Virus record (IMG/VR): IMGVR_UViG_3300028364_000023
Span: 1 to 64,000 of that record
Direction: 5' to 3' (one strand)
From: a virus
DNA: 64,000 bases
Shown here: one piece after another, positions 3,489 to 37,388 of the stretch
Numbering within the stretch: the first letter of the stretch is position 1
Layout: every line of letters starts with the position of its first letter
Notes under the pieces: generated by a model
The model's database searches: none
What the model was told of the DNA's origin: nothing
The model's input: only the letters and a program-made list of their open reading frames with translations
Program-made: the position numbers and the translations under genes

Positions 3489-4193
3489 TTATAAAACGAA
3501 CGCCTTTTCTTGTACAAAAGTGCTGGCTGCTTTTCTTGTGCCTTCCTGCCATCCTCGACTAATCAATAGATCCTTAACATCTTTGTTAAACGGCATACTT
3601 CCGCACAGCATTACTTTGTTCTGCTGCGGAGTGCTGTTTGTAAGAATAACACCGTCTGTGATTAGCTGTGTGATGCGTTTCGTCTCCCCAGTGTATACTG
3701 GGTCGCGTGTAACTATAGGGATGTATTGGACGTTGGATTCTTTTAGAAACGCGTCGTAAGCAACTAGTTCCTGTTGAGAACGCACACTCCACGCTAGGTG
3801 GATTTGATCAAACGCATCGTAAGTAGCCGGATCGCGTAACAAGCTAATAAACGGTGCAATCCCCGTGCCAGTTGCTAGCATCCAAAGATCTCCACCTAAT
3901 TCTACATTGGCAAGAGTAAGAGAACCAGTAGACTTTTCGCTTGCTTTAAGTTGATCACCTACTTTAATATGTTGCAGTTTACTAGTCAACAATCCGTTAG
4001 GAACTTTGATCGAGTAAAATTCTAACTCGCTATCATAAGGTCCGCTGGTAATCGAGTATGCTCTTTCTACACTATCGTTAATTCCGATCATTATAAATTC
4101 ACCAGCGGAAAATCTAAACGTCTGAGGCCGATGTGTTCTTATTCTGAAAAGTGTGTCAGTGTAGTGCTCTACTTCAGTTACTGTTAATAGCAT
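3489..4193 (-). CDS. fpr: Ferredoxin/flavodoxin-NADP+ reductase
   Basis: FAD enzyme exchanging electrons between NADPH and ferredoxin or flavodoxin. 234 residues, somewhat shorter than usual bacterial Fpr proteins. The FAD-binding RAYSITS is near residue 44, the NADP-binding GTGIAPF in the middle, CGSMPFN further on, and the C-terminal FVQEKAFV matches the bacterial subclass in which the last residues cover the flavin. The gene is complete with no missing motif. It lies between a QueD-like gene and uvsE, with the IscA-like carrier 3 kb away. A phage Fpr could redirect reducing power to phage ferredoxin or ribonucleotide reduction; that role is inference. Confidence 0.9.
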   Translation of the reverse strand: MLLTVTEVEHYTDTLFRIRTHRPQTFRFSAGEFIMIGINDSVERAYSITSGPYDSELEFYSIKVPNGLLTSKLQHIKVGDQLKASEKSTGSLTLANVELGGDLWMLATGTGIAPFISLLRDPATYDAFDQIHLAWSVRSQQELVAYDAFLKESNVQYIPIVTRDPVYTGETKRITQLITDGVILTNSTPQQNKVMLCGSMPFNKDVKDLLISRGWQEGTRKAASTFVQEKAFVL

Positions 4194-4239
4194 TTATTAC
4201 TTCCAATTATTATTACTGTACTTTAAGCGAACAACATAT

Positions 4240-4848: not shown

Positions 4849-5199
4849 TTATTCTTTGTGTGCTATTGTGTCTTCAATAGCAGTGTGATCTAACTTAATT
4901 TTATTAATTTCTAATTTTATGATCACAAATTCATTATTAACTGCGTCAATACCACTTGCTGCTTGTAACAATGCTTCTAACAGAATTTTAATGTTAATTA
5001 CTGCCCATATCCACCAAACAACAGACGTAACTGCAAATAATAATAATCCTATAAAAACTATTTGATTAAACAGTAATAATTCAAGAGGGACAAGAGCTAT
5101 TACTAAGATTGCAAAGGTAATAACTATTAATTTAGCTACCCACTTCCAAAATCTTAGTTGTTCAGTAATAGTAACAACCTTGTCTCTATAATTTAGCAT
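4849..5199 (-). CDS. Small membrane protein, two transmembrane segments
   Basis: 116 residues. Two hydrophobic helices (about residues 20-45 and 47-70) sit between a charged N-terminus and a polar C-terminal helix. No Shine-Dalgarno is visible. Instead a CATAAATA box ends five bases before the ATG, suggesting a late, nearly leaderless transcript. Function unknown; holin-like roles cannot be excluded. Confidence 0.6.
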   Translation of the reverse strand: MLNYRDKVVTITEQLRFWKWVAKLIVITFAILVIALVPLELLLFNQIVFIGLLLFAVTSVVWWIWAVINIKILLEALLQAASGIDAVNNEFVIIKLEINKIKLDHTAIEDTIAHKE

Positions 5200-5204
5200 A
5201 CTAC

Positions 5205-5212
5205 TATTTATG
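5205..5212 (-). promoter_or_regulatory. Late-promoter-like CATAAATA box
   Basis: CATAAATA then GTAGT then ATG of the membrane protein. Same layout as the homing endonuclease genes further right. Confidence 0.4.
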
Positions 5213-5241
5213 CTGTACTATTACCGGGTATTATGACTAGT

Positions 5242-5604
5242 TTATTTCGCTTCTAACTTAGCATTACTCAGCATGGTGTCAATAAATAACTCTCTGGACA
5301 CAGCCTGCTCCCCCCACTTGAGCAGAAAATAAGTGTGATCGCGAGCTGTCATGTCTGACACTATGCTTAGCCTATACTGCTGCCTGCCTAGATCCTGTGT
5401 TCTAATAATTTCTAAAGACAGGCAATGTTTTTTACACCACTTGCCTGACTCAAATGTATCCTTCCACTGCTCGATGCTGTTTCGAAACATAATATCTATA
5501 GCAGTGTCTAGGAAAATCTCCATACTAACATGGCCTGTGGCTATTACAACCTGCACTATTTCCTCTACTTGATTTTTATCATTAACCTGATAACGTGTTC
5601 TCAT
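5242..5604 (-). CDS. Unknown protein with FLLKW motif
   Basis: 120 residues, soluble, with a hydrophobic strand ending YFLLKWGEQ near residue 94. The same FLLKW-type strand recurs in several small proteins at 46.9-48.7 kb. It overlaps the topoisomerase subunit gene start by four bases at its 5' side neighbour. Function unknown. Confidence 0.6.
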   Translation of the reverse strand: MRTRYQVNDKNQVEEIVQVVIATGHVSMEIFLDTAIDIMFRNSIEQWKDTFESGKWCKKHCLSLEIIRTQDLGRQQYRLSIVSDMTARDHTYFLLKWGEQAVSRELFIDTMLSNAKLEAK

Positions 5605-6938
5605 AGTTTTATTGCTTGCAAGTCATTTACAAGAATCTCTTCAAGCGACAGTTTCTTATATTCAGTAATCGATGCTTTTAGTTCAGACGATTGTTTTTTC
5701 AGTTTAGCAATTTCTTCCTTAGTCAGTGATCGCATAGGTAATGTTAGGAATTTGTCAACTTTACCTACAAGTACCGAGGAGTATGATTCGGCTTGCTTGG
5801 TAATGTTGACTTCTGAATTATTACGTAGCTCAATCTTCTCTTCAATAACACCTTTTATGAATAAAACTTTTGCGTCGGCATGGTCCATATCGTCCTGCAT
5901 CTTTTGAAGTATATATTCTTTGCGCAGTTGATTAAACTCAATGCGCTTGTTATACCATTCGTCTAGCAAGTGTTTGAGACTATCAAAGATTACAATCTTG
6001 TTGTTCTCGTCAATACAAGTAAAGTTCTCGCTCATCTTCCTGATCAGCTTGAGTTTGTTCAAAATCCACTCGTCGTCTTTATCACCAAATGCGCGATCTA
6101 CATGTAGTTCAAATTCAAACTCGTCGTTGTCTGATAGGTCATCGTAGTCCTTAATTACTTTATCGTCAACTAGCTTGTCCAAAACGCTCTGATACTGTTT
6201 GAGTGTATAGCCCACAGGAATTGATGTAACCAGCAAGCGATGCTTTGTCTTGCGTGTAAAGCTGCCTTTAACCAGCCACTGCACAGATGTTTCACCTTGC
6301 TCTACTGTGCACTTCATTCCGTTCCAATAGGGAGTAAGATCAGCAGTTGCTCGTTTGCCTTCTGCACGTTGTCGAACCCACTTGTGCACTTCTTTAGGAC
6401 TACGCGGAAATATCTTTTGTGCAAAGCCGATGCTCACGCCTTCACTACCGTTTATGGCCAGTACAGGTAATGTAGGCACATAGAACCTCGGTTCAATTTT
6501 AGTTCCTTCAAAGCTTTGGCTTACTAGGTTTACAAAGTCTTCCTTAACAAACAGGTTTTTAAGTGCCGGCGCCATTCTAGCAAAAATATAACGTGTAGCA
6601 GCCGCATCGTTAATAAACGCACTACCAAAGTTACCGTCACCTTCCAGCAAGGGTAGGTTGTTACCGTTGCCCACATAGTCAGCAGTCATGTTAACAATAG
6701 TACCTTCAAGGCTGCCATGCAAATACTGTGAAAAATCCTGCACCCTCGGGCCTAGGTTAGACACCTTAACGAAGCTGTTAACGTTCTGTTGCAGCACAGT
6801 GTATACGATCTTACGTCCGCTATTCTTTTGGCCGTCAATGTAGCTAGCCAGCTTGCGCACGTTGTCGTACACACTGAAAGAGATATAATCATTCTTAAAG
6901 AAGTCTTCTAGCTGGACTACAGGAGTTGTTGATGCCAT
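5601..6938 (-). CDS. 52: DNA topoisomerase II medium subunit (T4 gp52-like)
   Basis: Breakage-rejoining subunit of the T4-type type II topoisomerase, equivalent to GyrA/ParC without the C-terminal wrapping domain. 445 residues, matching gp52 size. The catalytic Arg-Tyr is visible as AATRYIFARM with Tyr117. LEGDGNFGS and the tower/coiled-coil region (about 330-400) follow in order. It lies directly after the large subunit with one base between stop and start, so both are co-translated. It relieves supercoiling during phage DNA replication. Confidence 0.93.
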   Translation of the reverse strand: MASTTPVVQLEDFFKNDYISFSVYDNVRKLASYIDGQKNSGRKIVYTVLQQNVNSFVKVSNLGPRVQDFSQYLHGSLEGTIVNMTADYVGNGNNLPLLEGDGNFGSAFINDAAATRYIFARMAPALKNLFVKEDFVNLVSQSFEGTKIEPRFYVPTLPVLAINGSEGVSIGFAQKIFPRSPKEVHKWVRQRAEGKRATADLTPYWNGMKCTVEQGETSVQWLVKGSFTRKTKHRLLVTSIPVGYTLKQYQSVLDKLVDDKVIKDYDDLSDNDEFEFELHVDRAFGDKDDEWILNKLKLIRKMSENFTCIDENNKIVIFDSLKHLLDEWYNKRIEFNQLRKEYILQKMQDDMDHADAKVLFIKGVIEEKIELRNNSEVNITKQAESYSSVLVGKVDKFLTLPMRSLTKEEIAKLKKQSSELKASITEYKKLSLEEILVNDLQAIKL

Positions 6939-6939
6939 A

Positions 6940-8727
6940 TTATATTCTCATTATGTCGAAGGGAGCTGATTGTAGTAGTTGTTGCTTGCGAAAGTCTATT
7001 GTACTACCACTGAACCATTGTGTAAATAGATCAGTATCGGTAATTGACACTACTGGGAGCATTTCTGACAGTGTGTCTGTAGAAATAATATGTTGTAGAT
7101 CTTTCACACTCCAACTGCCTAGTCCTTTTTGGTACTGTACATCTAGACTTTTGCTGATCTTACTCACATCAGCAAACGAGTACGCCCATTCTTTTACGAT
7201 ATTATTTTTTTTGCCAATAGCAATGGGAGTTTGTAATAGTTTCATTTTACCATTGTTCAAGTACTCAGGGAAGTACTTGAACATAAACAAAGATAAGAGA
7301 CCTTGTATACGTGATCCATCTGCGTCAGCGTCAGTAGCAATACAGATTTCAGCATCTGGAAAAGTTGTAATAATACTGTACAATTCGCTCAGCTCTTTGT
7401 TGGCCATAAACTTTTGGTGGCTTACTTCTAACACATTCAATGGCACGCCTTTGAGTGCGTAAAATGCGTTGCCTTTACGCCCGAGACATTTAATGATTCC
7501 TCCGGCCGCCGAATTTCCCTCTACTACGAAAATTCGATGTGTTCCGCCAATGGCTGCTACGTACTTGTCACTTATGATCTTTTTCTTCTTTTCCAGCTTG
7601 TTAAGGTCTTTCTTGGCCAGCAGATCCTCCTGCATCTTGGTATAAGCTGTGATCTCGTCAATTAGGTCAATGTTCTTCATCAGCTTAGCAACAATCTTCT
7701 TGGCATCAACTTCACCAATTGCTTCTCGGCATTCAGCTGACGAATTTGTCACGCGTTCTTTAGTTTGGCTGTCAAACTTGAGCTGTCCAAACCCGTTAAC
7801 TACTGCGTGCACTCGCAGGTGCTGCTTGAGCCTTGCTGCTGTAATGTCGGTCTTCTTACGCCTCTTGAGTACCTCACGGAACTCACTAATTACGTTGCTT
7901 ACAAAGTAGTCAATGTGTGTGCCTGACTTTACGCTCAGTCCGTTAACTAACGAATGTGTTTGGAAACTACCGTCTGACTTAGCAATGCTGAACAGTGCGT
8001 GTTCTGTAGCAAAGGTATCGCACTCACCAAAGTAGTCAGCGTACTTAACCTTTTGCAGCTCACCGTTAAACTTAAACTTAATAGTATCAAACGCTAGTGC
8101 TAATGATTTTACTCGTTCCCCAATCAGCTTGATGTGAGTTGCATCAATGCCGGCCATACCAAAGAAAGCATAGTCGGGTGTAAATTTTATAGTTGTGCCC
8201 TGCCTAGTTGTTTGCTTGGTTGTGATCTGATCTACCTGCCCATTAATACCTATCATCTTTACTTCTTTCTTACCGTCGGCACTTCTAGCTTCAAATTTAG
8301 CTGCGGTTACAAACGTAATCATAGAACCTATGCCGTTCATGCCGATGCTTTCTCGAGTGTCATCGTCAAAATTTGAACCAGCTCTTGCTCTTGTAAACGC
8401 TGCTACCATTTGATACTCTGGACCGTCTGGCGTATCTACTTTATTTGTAGGGATTCCTCGTCCATTGTCGGACACAGAGACAGTGCCGTTAGCATCTACA
8501 GTTACATCAATTTTTGTTGCAAACTCATGTTTGGTACGAACATGCTCATCCACACTGTTGTCAATGATCTCGTTGATCACTTTGAGTAAACCGCCTACTA
8601 CTTTTACTATTTGAAACTCAGCGTCTATAAAAGCAGTTTCCTCTTGCAGGACCTGGCTACCACCGTACATACTAAATCTTTGTATTACGTGGTCTTTATC
8701 GCTTAATAGCTTAAAATTATCTGACAT
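6940..8727 (-). CDS. 39: DNA topoisomerase II large subunit (T4 gp39-like)
   Basis: ATPase and Toprim subunit, equivalent to GyrB/ParE. GHKL ATPase motifs are present: EIIDNSVDEH near residue 50, DNGRGIPT near 90, and GMNGIGS. The Toprim part has VVEGNSAAGG and the metal-binding DADADG. 595 residues, one continuous gene, unlike T4 itself where this subunit is split into genes 39 and 60. Followed immediately by gene 52. Confidence 0.93.
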   Translation of the reverse strand: MSDNFKLLSDKDHVIQRFSMYGGSQVLQEETAFIDAEFQIVKVVGGLLKVINEIIDNSVDEHVRTKHEFATKIDVTVDANGTVSVSDNGRGIPTNKVDTPDGPEYQMVAAFTRARAGSNFDDDTRESIGMNGIGSMITFVTAAKFEARSADGKKEVKMIGINGQVDQITTKQTTRQGTTIKFTPDYAFFGMAGIDATHIKLIGERVKSLALAFDTIKFKFNGELQKVKYADYFGECDTFATEHALFSIAKSDGSFQTHSLVNGLSVKSGTHIDYFVSNVISEFREVLKRRKKTDITAARLKQHLRVHAVVNGFGQLKFDSQTKERVTNSSAECREAIGEVDAKKIVAKLMKNIDLIDEITAYTKMQEDLLAKKDLNKLEKKKKIISDKYVAAIGGTHRIFVVEGNSAAGGIIKCLGRKGNAFYALKGVPLNVLEVSHQKFMANKELSELYSIITTFPDAEICIATDADADGSRIQGLLSLFMFKYFPEYLNNGKMKLLQTPIAIGKKNNIVKEWAYSFADVSKISKSLDVQYQKGLGSWSVKDLQHIISTDTLSEMLPVVSITDTDLFTQWFSGSTIDFRKQQLLQSAPFDIMRI

Positions 8728-25030: not shown

Positions 25031-25594
25031 CTATTTTTCGGGTTTAGCTGTATTTCCAAATTCTTTAGGATCTCGCTCGGGCCCAGCGGCGTCAAACAAG
25101 TGCCAATGTTTAGGGTCAAGGTGGCCATACAATGCACCTTGTGGACGCATCTCGCGTTTCCTTGCACAGTACAGTGTATCGCCTTCGAAGCCTGCGTCAA
25201 TAAACGCTTGCTCTAACTGGGGCAGATCTTCTTCAAGTATCTCCTCGCAGTCTGCGCCACCCCAGAAGAATACGTCATTGCACAGTACCGCAAACTCAAG
25301 TTCTTCATCTGTCCACATTAGACAATCTGCCATGTCGTATCTAGCCACTAGTTTTAAAAGCGCAAATTTCCATTGATCATTGCCTAGCGGCTGATTCTCG
25401 TCGTGTGTTATAACTGCGTGTAACTTTTGTCCTATCATGTTCAGCTGTGATCGATCAGCGTTGACGAAGCATTTACATCCACCATTAGTATGCATGCCGG
25501 CACGTGTGCCGAATACTAGGCAATTTCCATCACTACAACCAGCTAGGTTGCCTATTAGAAACTGTCTCAAGCTTTTGCCTCCCAACTTTATCAT
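25031..25594 (-). CDS. Unknown protein
   Basis: 187 residues with several Cys (GCSDGNC, GGCKCF) in the N-terminal third that could hold a metal, then a helical acidic region. No family recognised. One base separates it from the YqeY-like gene upstream. Confidence 0.55.
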   Translation of the reverse strand: MIKLGGKSLRQFLIGNLAGCSDGNCLVFGTRAGMHTNGGCKCFVNADRSQLNMIGQKLHAVITHDENQPLGNDQWKFALLKLVARYDMADCLMWTDEELEFAVLCNDVFFWGGADCEEILEEDLPQLEQAFIDAGFEGDTLYCARKREMRPQGALYGHLDPKHWHLFDAAGPERDPKEFGNTAKPEK

Positions 25595-25595
25595 G

Positions 25596-26024
25596 TTAAA
25601 TTAACTCCTTAACAATTGCGCTGGCAACCTTGCCGTCGTATTGACCTTTATAGTGTGCGTTTAGCGCACCCATCATTAGGCCCACTTTTTTAGCATCAGG
25701 TACATCACCGCATCCGCCAATAATAGCGGCTACAAAACTGCGTATTTGATCTGGTGTTAGCTGAGTAGGTTGATATTTTTCCAGCAAACCTACCTCCTTT
25801 CTGATGTCACTTTGTGCGGCTATATCGTTAGTAAGCTCTAACAGCTCGTGCAGATTTTTCAGAAACTTCTGAACAACTTTTGCTACCTGCTCATCTGTAA
25901 CGGTATCATTACCGCTAGGGCTTGATTCTCCTAATAGAGTAGTTAGTGCAGATGCTGCAAATGTGTCTTTTGCTTTTCGTGCAGCAACTTGATCTGCACG
26001 AATTAATTCTAGTAATGCGCTCAT
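25596..26024 (-). CDS. YqeY/GatB C-terminal-like protein
   Basis: 142 residues. The helical layout, KYQPTQLTPDQI and the C-terminal MGALNAHYKGQYDGKVAS match the YqeY family, which shares the tail domain of GatB (tRNA amidotransferase subunit B) and is thought to bind tRNA. Fits the tRNA-rich setting. Biochemical role unproven. Confidence 0.78.
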   Translation of the reverse strand: MSALLELIRADQVAARKAKDTFAASALTTLLGESSPSGNDTVTDEQVAKVVQKFLKNLHELLELTNDIAAQSDIRKEVGLLEKYQPTQLTPDQIRSFVAAIIGGCGDVPDAKKVGLMMGALNAHYKGQYDGKVASAIVKELI

Positions 26025-26326
26025 TTTATTACCTTTTGTGTTGAATTAGGAGCAGACGACAGGATTCTAACCTATTCACAAAGATCTATAATCTTTGTTA
26101 AGTCTTATTCCTACGAGCATTTACCGGTATACTCATAGTTTAGACTCAGGACCGCCGTTCGCTCTCCGCCTGCATAATTAGTACCGCCCTAGGTAAAAGC
26201 CTCGAGACAATTACCTAGGACTTCCGGAATTTTTTATAGAGTCCAACTCAGCAGCCATCTTGACCACCACAGGAATCGAACCTGCTTTCCGGCATTTCTT
26301 TCTTTTTTCGTCTCTATTCTAAATTT
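26025..26326 (-). other. Degenerate tRNA-like segments
   Basis: No ORF. About 26050-26130 has a T-arm-like TTAGAAT segment and a 7-bp AAAGA/TCTTT-type hairpin. A 9-bp perfect stem (cctaggtaa) sits at 26188-26219. At 26262-26292 a clear T-arm (AGG TTCGATT CCT) with a following acceptor-like strand lacks the rest of the tRNA. Looks like tRNA genes in decay. Confidence 0.5.
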
Positions 26327-26400
26327 TGGAAGCGGGTACAGGATTCAAACCTGTGTGCGTAGAGTTGCAGTCCACTGCCTAGTCGCTCGGCCAACCCGCC
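26327..26400 (-). tRNA. tRNA-Cys(GCA)
   Basis: All arms pair; loop CTGCAAC gives anticodon GCA; discriminator U73 and encoded CCA. Confidence 0.92.
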
Positions 26401-26403
26401 ATA

Positions 26404-26592
26404 TTACTTTTTGTAAACTACCCAAGCCTCTGGTTTAGTCTTCCAAAAGTCTGTGTTCCATGGCTTATCCGGATAGCGTTCAATTAACTTGTTCATTGTG
26501 TCTGCATGTAATTGTGCAGATGACTCCGAATCATATTCCATTCCGCCGTTGCTGATATTTGGGTCGGACTTAGATCTTGCAATAAATCTCAT
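26404..26592 (-). CDS. Unknown 62-residue protein
   Basis: Basic, Trp-rich C-terminus (WNTDFWKTKPEAWVVYKK). Its stop lies just upstream of tRNA-Cys, so both are probably one transcript from promoter 26620-26648. Confidence 0.55.
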   Translation of the reverse strand: MRFIARSKSDPNISNGGMEYDSESSAQLHADTMNKLIERYPDKPWNTDFWKTKPEAWVVYKK

Positions 26593-26619
26593 TTGTCTTA
26601 CTCCCTTATCTCAGTACAC

Positions 26620-26648
26620 AGTATACTTATGTTTACTGTCTGTGTCAA
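26620..26648 (-). promoter_or_regulatory. Sigma70-type promoter
   Basis: TTGACA, 17 bp, TATACT on the minus strand. Confidence 0.82.
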
Positions 26649-26651
26649 CCT

Positions 26652-27005
26652 CTATTCTTCTGGCGATTGCCTTGGCTGCCACAGAAGACTAGCTACTATT
26701 AGTTCGTTGTCTTCTTCGTACATTTTGCCCACTGTAAATACCTGTGTGAACTGAGCTCCGCGAATTGACGAACGAAATGATTGATCACGTATCGACCTTA
26801 CTGTGGTCTTGCTGACCTTGCATGATATCCACAACCCAGAGTGAGAGCACATAGCTGACTCGGTGTCCATTTTATGGCACATCAGCAATTCATTAAAGAA
26901 GTTTACAGCATCTCCTCGATTTTGTACAACAACAAGGGTTGACCCATGAGCGGAATAAACATCATCAAGCAGCTCACGATTTAGAAACAAGTAATTAGTT
27001 ATCAT
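26652..27005 (-). CDS. Unknown protein
   Basis: 117 residues from the ATG at 27005 (ACGAGG upstream). Mixed alpha/beta, ends LLWQPRQSPEE. No family recognised. It follows the long noncoding region. Confidence 0.55.
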   Translation of the reverse strand: MITNYLFLNRELLDDVYSAHGSTLVVVQNRGDAVNFFNELLMCHKMDTESAMCSHSGLWISCKVSKTTVRSIRDQSFRSSIRGAQFTQVFTVGKMYEEDNELIVASLLWQPRQSPEE

Positions 27006-27484
27006 ATTAACCTCGTGAATTAGTAGTGTGACAACTGGTACTGATCTCCAGCATAGCAACCCGACACAGTTCGCGACCAATATCGGTTCCCCTGTTTGTT
27101 CAAATCTGCCCAGGGTCAGCGCCTCGTCTCATGCTTGGCCGCTAAGCTCAAGCACTGCGTATCAGTCTACGCATCTGTCACATCTTAAAGCACTCTGTGT
27201 CAAAGTGCTTTAAGATGTCCTCTACCCGTAGGCAAAGGACATTAACGCAGTAGCTAGTTCGGTTGCCTAGCAGGTCCCAGCTGTGGCGTTCAAGCAATAC
27301 CAAAGATCACTACGTAACACTTGGCGTTCAACTTGTGTACCTCCGATCCTAGAAGCCGTCGCTTCTTCGCCCGAATAAGGATTCTTCACAGTATGCTCTA
27401 CTGTTTAGTTATACTGCGCCCCTTAGCTTGCGCTAAGAGTACCGTGTGCTCATTTTAATTGTAATGAGCAGACCGAATTATTTA
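27006..27484 (-). ncRNA. Large structured noncoding RNA, downstream part (candidate)
   Basis: Roughly 480 bases without an ORF but full of perfect inverted repeats on the minus-strand transcript: 14 bp at 27181-27217, 8 bp at 27448-27470, 6 bp at 27422-27437, 6 bp with a GACG loop at 27351-27366, and a 10-base direct repeat (27284, 27322). It continues the transcript from the promoter at 27680-27707. A giant phage RNA of the GOLLD or ROOL kind, which occur beside phage tRNAs, is a possible match. Confidence 0.5.
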
Positions 27485-27666
27485 TTTACACTGCCGGGGA
27501 TCGAACCCGGATGTTTCAATTACGTTGCGCTGTTATGAAACGGGTAGTTCTCGCCTGACTCAGTTATACAAGTCTTGAGCGCAAAACGGTGTATTATTAA
27601 TATTTCACCGCCTATCCATATTGGCTTATTCCGCACCCCTGTATACCTATTCCAGCACAGTGTAAA
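27485..27666 (-). ncRNA. Oversized tRNA-like RNA, 182 bases
   Basis: The two ends pair over 9 bp (TTTACACTG with CAGTGTAAA), a perfect T-arm (CCGGG TTCGATC CCCGG) abuts the 3' strand, and the 5' side has a Leu-type D-arm-like segment. About 90 extra bases with their own hairpins replace the normal anticodon region. Either a tRNA with an insertion or the 5' domain of a larger RNA. Confidence 0.5.
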
Positions 27667-27679
27667 TCTTTACTTTATT

Positions 27680-27707
27680 AGTATAGCACCTTTGTAGTGT
27701 TTGTCAA
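27680..27707 (-). promoter_or_regulatory. Sigma70-type promoter for the noncoding region
   Basis: TTGACA, 16 bp, TATACT on the minus strand. Nothing but RNA elements for the next 670 bases. Confidence 0.83.
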
Positions 27708-28604
27708 CTACCATTCTTCCATTTCTGTCTTTCTTTTGTTGATAGTTTCTTGAGTCACTTGTAGTAGCAATTCGTAAGGCTCGTATTCTTGTCCTTGGCT
27801 ACCTTCGTGTCCTCCGGGTAGCCATTGCTTGCGCGTTTCATCAAAGAATAGGTTAAGCATAGCTCCTTTGAGGTATTCTTTGATGAACGCTTCTGCTTGT
27901 TCGATCTCACCTGCTTCAACTAGTGCACGAACAATTCCTTGGCCTCGTAACATTCCACTAAATCGGTGCTCGTTAAAGTTTAGCGTCTTCGCCAGCTTGC
28001 TGCACACTGGGTATTCGGCCATGTTGTTTATAAGCATGAATCCTATTTCGTCATTCTTTTCAACAAGGTCTTTTATTGCCAGGATGTAATCAGTTGCTTC
28101 CTCAACAAGGTCATTGTAACCGTATTTAAAGTAGTTTACCTCATTAGACTCATGGTTATATTTGCAGTCTTCAATTTGCCACTTATTAAGAATTGCGTCC
28201 ACGCAGTCTTTGCGCATCATTGCAAAGTCAATATAGGACTCTTTGCCAAACTTATTTTCAATAATTAAACGCTGTTCGCGAACACTTTCAAAAAACTGTT
28301 CCTCTCCAAAAGAGCTGCGAGTAACAGCAACGTCGTGGCGCTGGTTCTCTCCCACTTCTATTTCCATTTCTATTAAGTTTTCCCTAACTGCGCCTAGCAC
28401 ATACGTTAGCCCCACTCCGCTATTCTCATCGCTTCCGCCGTAGTCATTATAAACACCTTCGAACGGTATCAGAACCGGTGCATAGTGCCCTGTAGCATAG
28501 CACTGATCGTATGTTGCCTTCTTCTCTAATGCAAAGACGTACACTGCGTCGCCGTGGTAGATTGGAAGGTTTGTCAATGAACATGTTTTATTCCAGCATC
28601 CCAT
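27708..28604 (-). CDS. Unknown protein, phage type
   Basis: 298 residues starting MGCWNKTCSLTNLPI, with two N-terminal Cys in a CxxxxxC setting and GVYNDYG further on. This N-terminus recurs in many phage hypotheticals as I recall. Largely acidic and helical after residue 100. Function unknown. Confidence 0.65.
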   Translation of the reverse strand: MGCWNKTCSLTNLPIYHGDAVYVFALEKKATYDQCYATGHYAPVLIPFEGVYNDYGGSDENSGVGLTYVLGAVRENLIEMEIEVGENQRHDVAVTRSSFGEEQFFESVREQRLIIENKFGKESYIDFAMMRKDCVDAILNKWQIEDCKYNHESNEVNYFKYGYNDLVEEATDYILAIKDLVEKNDEIGFMLINNMAEYPVCSKLAKTLNFNEHRFSGMLRGQGIVRALVEAGEIEQAEAFIKEYLKGAMLNLFFDETRKQWLPGGHEGSQGQEYEPYELLLQVTQETINKRKTEMEEW

Positions 28605-28628
28605 AAAATTTACTCCTTGTTAGTTTGG

Positions 28629-28922
28629 TTAGCGACCGTGAAATTGCCACATCACAGCATTGCAGAGTGCGTGTACTGCACCTTCTGTTAGCCCTGAGTC
28701 ATGACAGTGTTGTAAGTGAATTGGATGTTTTAGGAAGAATGGCGGGAACAGTTTCCAGTTTACTTTCTTAGAAGTTACTGACTTAGGCGGCTCTTCGGTC
28801 AGCTGTCGTTCGCAAAACATACAGGCACCGCCCTGCTGTTTAATATACTGTTCTCGAACTACTCGCTTGTCTCTAGACGAAATCTTATCGTACATCACAG
28901 GCAGCGTGTATTTGTCAGTCAT
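28629..28922 (-). CDS. Small His-Me finger (HNH/endonuclease VII-like) protein
   Basis: 97 residues. A CMFC zinc half-site near residue 34, then HPIHLQHCHDSGLTEGAVHALCNA resembles the DHDH...G..RG..C..CN active site of recombination endonuclease VII. Zinc second half is the late Cys plus His. Small size suggests a nicking or structural nuclease. Catalytic status uncertain. Confidence 0.6.
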   Translation of the reverse strand: MTDKYTLPVMYDKISSRDKRVVREQYIKQQGGACMFCERQLTEEPPKSVTSKKVNWKLFPPFFLKHPIHLQHCHDSGLTEGAVHALCNAVMWQFHGR

Positions 28923-36654: not shown

Positions 36655-36749
36655 GGAACGTGCTGGCGACCGAGGACGGACCAGGATCTACCATTATAGG
36701 ACTCAAACTTGTTCCTCTACGTCTGTTGTGAACCTATGTCCTAAATGTT
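36655..36749 (-). other. tRNA-like debris downstream of a homing gene
   Basis: No ORF. TTAGGAC/GTCCTATAA pairing and a TTTGAGT T-loop-like segment; an ACGTTCCACCA end-like piece beside it. Confidence 0.35.
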
Positions 36750-37388
36750 TTACTGTAACGTCTTGTTTACTACTCGGCCTCTTCTGTACCCTTCTGGTAT
36801 AAGTTCAGTCTTCTTAATCTTCTTTGATTCTACTTCGTTTGTAATCCACATCGTACCAAACTGCGAATTTCGTTTTCCTTTACTATGAATTTTAGCCTTT
36901 TCACTAATTAGTTGTTTAGTTGCGTCAGTATGTTTTTTTCCTAAAAAAGTTCTAAGGGCCAATGCTGCTAAGGAAGTGCTAATGCGTTTGTTGGTCTCTT
37001 CTGTATGACTTCTGCCGTAAAAAGTACCGTTTGGATACTTTGATATTCTAGCTTTACACATTTTATTCATATGTTCTTTTGAATGCGAAGAATTGTTTTT
37101 GTTAACATAGTCCCATCCACCAAATCCACCTACTTTTAAATTATAAGTGTTAGCTTCTGTCAAAAATTCTTCATTTACTAATTCTGCTTCTTTTGCGTAC
37201 ATTAGCTCAGGAGTATCAAAAATAAACAATATTTCTTTCACAAAATTATCAATTCCGTGTTTTTCTAATGCTCGCTTCAAATACTTACCTGAGCCCATAT
37301 AGCCGTCATTAAGATTAGGGGTCTTATGAGATCCGATATAGATCTTGCCGTTCATCTTATTTGTAACTTTGTATATAGTATAGTTCAT
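36750..37388 (-). CDS. GIY-YIG homing endonuclease
   Basis: 212 residues from the ATG at 37388. YTIYKVTN ... KIYIGSH, catalytic E in AKEAELVNEEF, NUMOD helices and an MWITNEVESKKIKK end much like the gene at 33370. TATAAATA ends four bases before the ATG; no Shine-Dalgarno. A 10-bp hairpin (GAGTCTTAAC) lies just upstream. Confidence 0.85.
   Translation of the reverse strand: MNYTIYKVTNKMNGKIYIGSHKTPNLNDGYMGSGKYLKRALEKHGIDNFVKEILFIFDTPELMYAKEAELVNEEFLTEANTYNLKVGGFGGWDYVNKNNSSHSKEHMNKMCKARISKYPNGTFYGRSHTEETNKRISTSLAALALRTFLGKKHTDATKQLISEKAKIHSKGKRNSQFGTMWITNEVESKKIKKTELIPEGYRRGRVVNKTLQ

Follow-up and report, generated by a model that had tools for sequence, protein, structure and literature searches.

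Some of the described RNAs with which the locus studied here can be compared come from phages. GOLLD and ROOL are located near tRNA islands and form cages, their function is unknown, and the linkers of GOLLD sometimes hold tRNAs (PMC12286853). In ICP1, the most abundant transcript is about 800 nt long and contains no ORF (PMC7567579). The stable RNAs C and D of phage T4 (species 1 and 2) are 119-139 nt long and lie in a tRNA cluster; RNA C has a T arm.

The present locus was found in a 64,000-nt stretch of viral DNA (the window), which corresponds to bases 1-64,000 of a record of 101,423 bases, and it is comparable with GOLLD, ROOL and the ICP1 RNA in setting and size. An earlier note on this DNA had described it as one RNA region of about 670 bases that would fit giant ornate RNAs such as GOLLD or ROOL. 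In the following, the region is divided into domain A, domain B and a variable 3' part (Table 1).

Results

Locus, promoter and transcription unit

Nearly all genes of the record are directed along the minus strand, and the 13 tRNA genes of the phage are scattered over 22.6-39.9 kb. The RNA locus extends from 27707 to 27006 on the minus strand, flanked by the genes of a 298-aa protein (28604-27708) and a 117-aa protein (ATG at 27005). The downstream gene shares the transcription unit with the RNA, and its ATG is a start also in L029, the diverged relative described below. No Pfam family was matched by the two flanking proteins. A YqeY-like phage protein (PF09424, 63 bits) is encoded just downstream of the RNA genes, at 25596-26024 (minus strand).

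The promoter scored 11/12 and has a TG preceding the -10 element; transcription is predicted to start at about 27672. In L029 the promoter occupies the same position and reads TTGACA...AAGGTGCTATACT. The spacer differs from that of the window, whereas the -35, the extended -10 and AAGGTGCTATACT are conserved. The 101-kb record contains 25 near-consensus promoters (TTGACA-15/18-TATAHT), every one of them on the minus strand, while shuffled genomes gave 0.3 each; therefore, the promoter is considered a real phage feature. The 25 promoters form a regular array of transcription units.

On the minus strand of the locus, no stop-free run is longer than 49 codons. The fold of the whole 667 nt reached -224.9 kcal/mol with a z of -4.8 against shuffles; the 3' 470 nt alone and the first 193 nt resulted in z values of -5.0 and -2.3, respectively. 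The earlier note had claimed a large, ORF-free and highly paired phage RNA beside tRNA genes, with its own strong promoter and an enlarged tRNA-like start, and all of this was borne out, including the start, where the acceptor partner of the T arm lies 154 nt upstream. The region of about 670 bases was thus seen correctly, but not its unity: the first 185 nt and the remainder are distributed differently, which makes the locus a composite of two domains.

Table 1. Positions of the structured features of the RNA locus, in window coordinates.
Feature	Position	Strand	Remarks
Sigma-70-type promoter TTGACA-16-TATACT	27680-27707	-	kept in L029
Domain A, tRNA-like pseudoknot RNA	27482-27666	-	span of models R1/R3; covariance-model matches in 12 other genomes; covariation
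Acceptor-like stem, 5' strand ATTTACACTG	27658-27667	-	10 bp in total, 7 bp in tRNA
D arm CTG-GAATAGGTATA-CAG, G-G in loop	27639-27655	-	covariation
Module replacing the anticodon arm	27542-27638	-	helices P2 and P3, hairpin P4, small hairpin
P2	27638-27632 with 27547-27542	-	about 6 bp with a bulge, family-wide
P3	27625-27623 with 27555-27553	-	3 bp
P4 hairpin	27613-27584	-	
Pseudoknot strand 1, TGCGCT	27578-27583	-	partner 27531-27526; directly after P4
Small hairpin	27574-27557	-	only in the window, L029 and L061
Variable-arm-like hairpin carrying the pseudoknot loop	27514-27540	-	helix 7; two-sided change in 5/5 pairs
Pseudoknot strand 2, AGCGCA	27526-27531	-	loop of variable-arm hairpin, motif AACAG-N3-AACGTAA
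T arm CCGGG-TTCGATC-CCCGG	27494-27510	-	
Acceptor-like stem, 3' strand CAGTGTAAAT	27484-27493	-	no CCA after the stem
Domain B core, multi-helix junction	27180-27440	-	49 pairs, 0 broken, 13 two-sided changes (window vs L029)
Domain B GNRA-capped hairpin	27439-27420	-	
Domain B closing helix	27419-27412 with 27252-27245	-	
Domain B inner hairpins	27382-27346, 27318-27306, 27271-27253	-	
Domain B hairpins	27242-27215 and 27218-27180	-	overlap by a few bases
Variable 3' part	27006-27179	-	no alignment to L029, where two repeated hairpins and an intrinsic terminator are found instead

Comparison with the relative L029

Through the flanking genes, two other IMG/VR records were reached whose DNA is identical. 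The downstream gene led to a diverged copy in a third record, 3300035702_000144 (L029), where the order gene-promoter-RNA-gene is as in the window. Identity between the RNAs of the window and L029 amounts to 76% in the first 200 nt and 68% in the middle part. Their consensus fold contains 98 pairs, none of which is broken, with 21 two-sided changes; when the partners were slid by 1-3 columns, pairing dropped to 29-46%. These counts by themselves show a conserved RNA structure in both domains. The 3' end of the L029 RNA is an intrinsic terminator, AGCCGTT...AACGGCT TTTATTTTT. At about 5790-5955 of L029, two similar tandem hairpins (TGAGTG...CGTTAAAAGCGG...ATTCAG) are present at the RNA 3' end, which are absent from the window.

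Members of the domain A family

R1 (domain A) and R2 (domain B) were the first covariance models, and R3 was built from nine domain A sequences; the scans covered the loci and records gathered in this analysis. R1 matched three further phage contigs, L061, L054 and L044 (111-135 bits), which had been located with 15 bases of the loop, and two others, L098 and L100, from a search that left the pseudoknot bases free. By BLAST, domain A was located at 4074-4234 of Pseudomonas phage GP100 (LT986460) and at 135450-135607 of Synechococcus phage S-CRM01 (NC_015569), in both of which it is unannotated. BLAST also led to Variovorax phage V45v66, whose genome record is wholly unannotated and whose domain A scores 103 bits with R3. 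The contigs G011 (136 bits) and G014 (132 bits), 96% identical to each other, were found by R3 alone. In Xanthomonas phage XacN1 a domain-A-like match of 57 bits with R3 was obtained at two places in the record, and this element is probably a family member.

Domain A was thereby found in 12 genomes beyond the window. The R3 scores of 12 members ranged from 103 to 170 bits and that of XacN1 was 57, whereas the tRNA-sized matches did not exceed 43 bits, and tRNAs were scored by R1 and R3 at about 15-43 bits. Domain A gives full-length matches clearly above tRNAs and has a covarying pseudoknot. Salicola phage SCTP-2 (39 bits), Aeromonas phage 65 and contig G009 were excluded, as their scores are not above those of tRNAs. 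Three bacterial matches to ATAACAGCGCAACGTAAT from a scan of genome contigs are not family members. In L024, a phage contig of 322 kb, an enlarged tRNA-like structure with a long extended anticodon arm lies within a tRNA cluster (7380-7529); it is only weakly similar to domain A and was set aside as a different type.

R3 had no matches in T4, KVP40, S-PM2, GAP32, BUCT-ZZ01 and other phages, therefore domain A is not generally needed. The 0 matches of R3 at E<=1e-12 over 398 genomes of one phylum (reached via a Methylorubrum genome) are a weak result, as the scan had no positive control. No literature on the domain A RNA was found in a search that left preprints and most subscription journals outside. 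Sequence and covariation show that domain A belongs to a family of phage RNAs that is undescribed, patchy in its spread and carried by very different genomes. Most members have tRNA genes in the neighbourhood, and domain A is often free-standing with a coding gene close downstream, for example in GP100.

Several observations were made at the loci of the members. In L061, a 518-kb phage contig, about 700 ORF-free bases follow domain A (6145-6890; z -3.7, apparently with their own promoter), of which 81 bases share 83% identity with a stretch of Synechococcus phage BUCT-ZZ01 that carries no annotation. Near the domain A gene of L044, at 2750-2866, a YrlA-like match stayed below the threshold (32 bits, E 0.002). 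The XacN1 element, which recurs at 355.9 kb, is directly followed by a permuted tmRNA (RF04321, 123 bits; L124 1667-1966, about 37.2-37.5 kb), unannotated in the record and with a plausible tag ending ...DYALAA.

Anatomy, covariation and pseudoknot of domain A

Members of the family are 156-185 nt long with a mean pairwise identity of 61% over 13 sequences. Each of the 13 has the acceptor-like stem, the D arm, the T arm and a hairpin at the place of the class II variable arm, and P2, P3 and P4 stand where a tRNA has its anticodon arm. In alignment A8, which was fitted to R3 and consequently favours the nested helices but not the pseudoknot, 95.9% of the 559 pair cells of the 13 sequences pair, and two-sided changes occur in 35/44 pairs (155 cells). 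The covariation score over these sequences was 0.790, compared to 0.234 (sd 0.019) after shuffling and at most 0.172 when the partners were slid. Weak conservation had been named in the earlier note as grounds against such an RNA; the opposite, strong conservation with covariation, was found.

The elbow corresponds to that of canonical tRNAs (G-G in the D loop, T loop TTCRA): GGTA is present in 13/13 sequences, and the T loop is TTCGA, or TTCAA in L132 and L133. The D-arm stems of different phages are CTG/CAG, CCG/CGG, CCC/GGG and GCG/CGC, and the terminal stem varies from 4 to 16 bp among the members, with 6-7 bp in some. The conserved bases concentrate in the elbow and the pseudoknot module (GGTGTGG..AAGCCAATATGGATGGG, CTCATGG, AACAG...ACGTAA), not in an anticodon loop. 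CCA is encoded by 10/13 tRNA genes of the phage and is absent after the domain A stem.

The pseudoknot was proposed from the window and L029, which are identical there, and was left out of R1 and R3. Since the models do not contain it, the genomes found later serve as an independent test. Seven different helices, TGCGCT/AGCGCA, CGCAC/GTGCG, TAGGCT/AGCCTA, TTAGCT/AGCTAA, CTAGCT/AGCTAG, CTGGCT/AGCCAG and TCGTG/CACGA, were observed among the finds with nearly all pairs kept. In XacN1 the pseudoknot loop was misplaced by the model alignment; TGCTGC and GCAGCA are present where expected. We regard the structure of domain A as nearly certain.

Domain B

The covariation of domain B is based on two sequences, those of the window and L029. 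R2 matched nothing beyond this phage, its copies and the 76%-identical L029, and the other carriers of domain A are without domain B. It is also absent near distant relatives of the 298-aa protein (31-38% identity). Domain B is a separate predicted junction, known from this lineage only.

Searches against known RNAs

With the Rfam 15 families, at gathering scores and at E<=10, only tRNAs and chance matches were obtained in the RNA region and L029. For GOLLD (RF02032), both window 25590-28700 and L029 were without a match at E<=10, and for ROOL likewise no family of Rfam 15 was matched; the positive control covers GOLLD and not ROOL. Membership of GOLLD or ROOL, as suggested by the earlier note, was not supported by these models: neither the region nor L029 produced a match at the gathering score or a meaningful one at E<=10, yet the same library finds GOLLD in L054 (163 bits). 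The latter, with an embedded tRNA-Glu, is situated at 4887-5350 (minus strand), on the same contig as a domain A gene but at a separate locus.

A canonical tRNA was rejected, as ARAGORN with default settings and the Rfam tRNA model miss domain A, whose 7-nt anticodon loop is replaced. No Rfam tmRNA match was found in the region and no tmRNA by ARAGORN in the window, whereas Rfam finds one in XacN1. A conserved tag reading frame was not detected: in the window, the only shared ATG frame is closed by a stop after four codons.

Other structured elements in the window

A second enlarged tRNA-like cloverleaf was noticed at 26172-26050 (minus strand), with the acceptor GCAGGCG/CGTCTGC, an extended anticodon arm containing an inner hairpin, the variable arm ACAAAGAT/ATCTTTGT and a weak T arm. 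It lies inside the region 26326-26041 (fold z -5.0), where a free T-arm-like hairpin, GCAGGTTCGATTCCTGT, precedes the cloverleaf. At 39799-39591 (minus strand) two long near-perfect hairpins are located between tRNA-Ser genes (z -8.3). The first of them encloses the T-arm-like hairpin ACAGGTTCGAGACCTGT, and part of the region recurs at 36680-36761.

Discussion

The explanation that we favour, and consider somewhat probable, is that the region is one promoter-driven non-coding transcript with two structured domains, of which domain A would be a non-decoding tRNA mimic acting on the tRNA-binding machinery. Domain A keeps the tRNA elbow and an acceptor-like stem, and the anticodon arm is replaced by a branched module locked by the pseudoknot to the variable-arm hairpin. 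Due to the absence of an anticodon loop and an encoded CCA and the variable length of the acceptor stem, we infer that it does not decode. Non-decoding mimicry taken by itself is reasonably probable. As a stable mimic of tRNA, domain A would be gripped at its elbow by host or phage tRNA-binding machinery, the candidates being the ribosome, EF-Tu, RNase P, enzymes of tRNA maturation or modification, defence enzymes that target tRNAs, and defence proteins that read the elbow; any one specific target is doubtful. As there is no anticodon loop, a role as decoy of anticodon nucleases is less probable. The pseudoknot module may occupy the decoding side or recruit a partner. Domain B probably serves as cargo or scaffold and would either stay tethered to domain A or be released by RNase P, RNase Z or RNase III. 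Against this explanation stand the sparse occurrence of the family and the stems of 6-7 bp in some members, which may mature to a chargeable molecule. The neighbourhoods agree with a role in translation: tRNA genes are near most carriers, and in XacN1 the permuted tmRNA comes directly after the element.

Size, phage origin, the tRNA context and a compact junction core with a GNRA loop would also suit a giant ornate RNA, in which the whole 670 nt would be an analogue of GOLLD or ROOL, a self-assembling scaffold or cage with a built-in tRNA module. The tRNAs that sometimes occur in GOLLD linkers (PMC12286853), the GOLLD about 2 kb from the domain A gene of L054 and the well-folded ORF-free sequence of about 700 nt after domain A of L061, apparently with its own promoter, point in the same direction. 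However, no Rfam family was matched, domain A often stands alone, as in GP100, and other carriers are without domain B; we consider this reading unlikely. Slightly less likely is a processing or stability module, whose tRNA-like fold would recruit RNase P or RNase Z (RNase III on longer stems) and thus free and protect the downstream RNA or mRNA. An elbow plus an acceptor stem is the usual signal of RNase P and RNase Z. Both are present here, the stem reaches up to 16 bp in several phages, and a gene follows within the same transcription unit, but the near-invariant AACAG...AACGTAA loop, the P2/P3/P4 joints and the pseudoknot would be left unexplained, as a processing signal needs none of them.

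When introns were allowed, ARAGORN fitted a tRNA with a 91-nt insert in the window, as would suit a class II tRNA whose anticodon loop contains an intron and which is later spliced to a working tRNA. The fitted tRNA is Met(cat) with an insert of 91 nt in the window but Gly(acc) with one of 81 nt in L029 (at a lowered threshold), and the placement differs. Furthermore, conservation is highest in the supposed insert, which pairs with the variable arm, no group I intron was matched, and CCA is not encoded. This reading is highly improbable and was rejected, since the anticodon and the position of the insert differ between the two closest relatives. Even less credit is given to a well-folded leader or antisense region devoid of RNA function: the location directly upstream of the small gene (ATG at 27005) is in agreement with it, but the conservation of domain A in unrelated contexts, with 155 cells of two-sided change over 35 pairs, refutes it for this domain.

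The non-decoding mimic of tRNA may, tentatively, be extended to a new class of viral RNA: a mimic with a pseudoknotted effector that would enter the ribosome or a tRNA enzyme, redirecting host translation or blunting a tRNA-targeting defence, and that would here be tethered to domain B. It would be notable that a family of 156-185 nt with strong covariation was missed by Rfam and the tRNA finder, yet is present in sequenced isolates (S-CRM01, GP100); two of the clear members come from isolates with public genomes. As a tool that imitates tRNA, domain A is probably widespread among phages. The combination of a tRNA-like fold and a conserved pseudoknot offers a testable handle on a long-standing question, the purpose of the stable RNAs that phages keep near tRNA genes, such as T4 RNA C/D, GOLLD and ROOL.

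In comparison with known systems, the RNA of this locus resembles GOLLD and ROOL as a large phage non-coding RNA in a tRNA neighbourhood. It differs from them in having no covariance-model match and in that the widely conserved unit is 160-185 nt and tRNA-shaped. With class II tRNAs (Leu, Ser, Tyr), domain A shares a GAAYTGGTA-type D loop, the T arm and a variable-arm hairpin; in contrast to them, it is without an anticodon arm or encoded CCA, is 156-185 nt long and has the pseudoknot. YrlA (bacterial Y RNA, RF02553) is also non-coding with a tRNA-like module, but was rejected, as RF02553 gave no match at domain A in the scanned members and domain A ends within its acceptor-like stem. The tRNA-like domain of tmRNA, including the permuted form (RF04321), has an elbow, an acceptor stem, a longer helix in place of the anticodon arm and pseudoknots, as does domain A; in the latter, however, CCA is absent and the pseudoknot joins the variable arm to the module that stands in for the anticodon arm. 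Homology with T4 RNAs C and D was rejected, as the R1 alignment to RNA C was limited to the T arm and bases close to it (22 bits, no more than ordinary tRNAs score) and R3 found nothing in T4. In setting, these two stable RNAs of T4 are the nearest to domain A.
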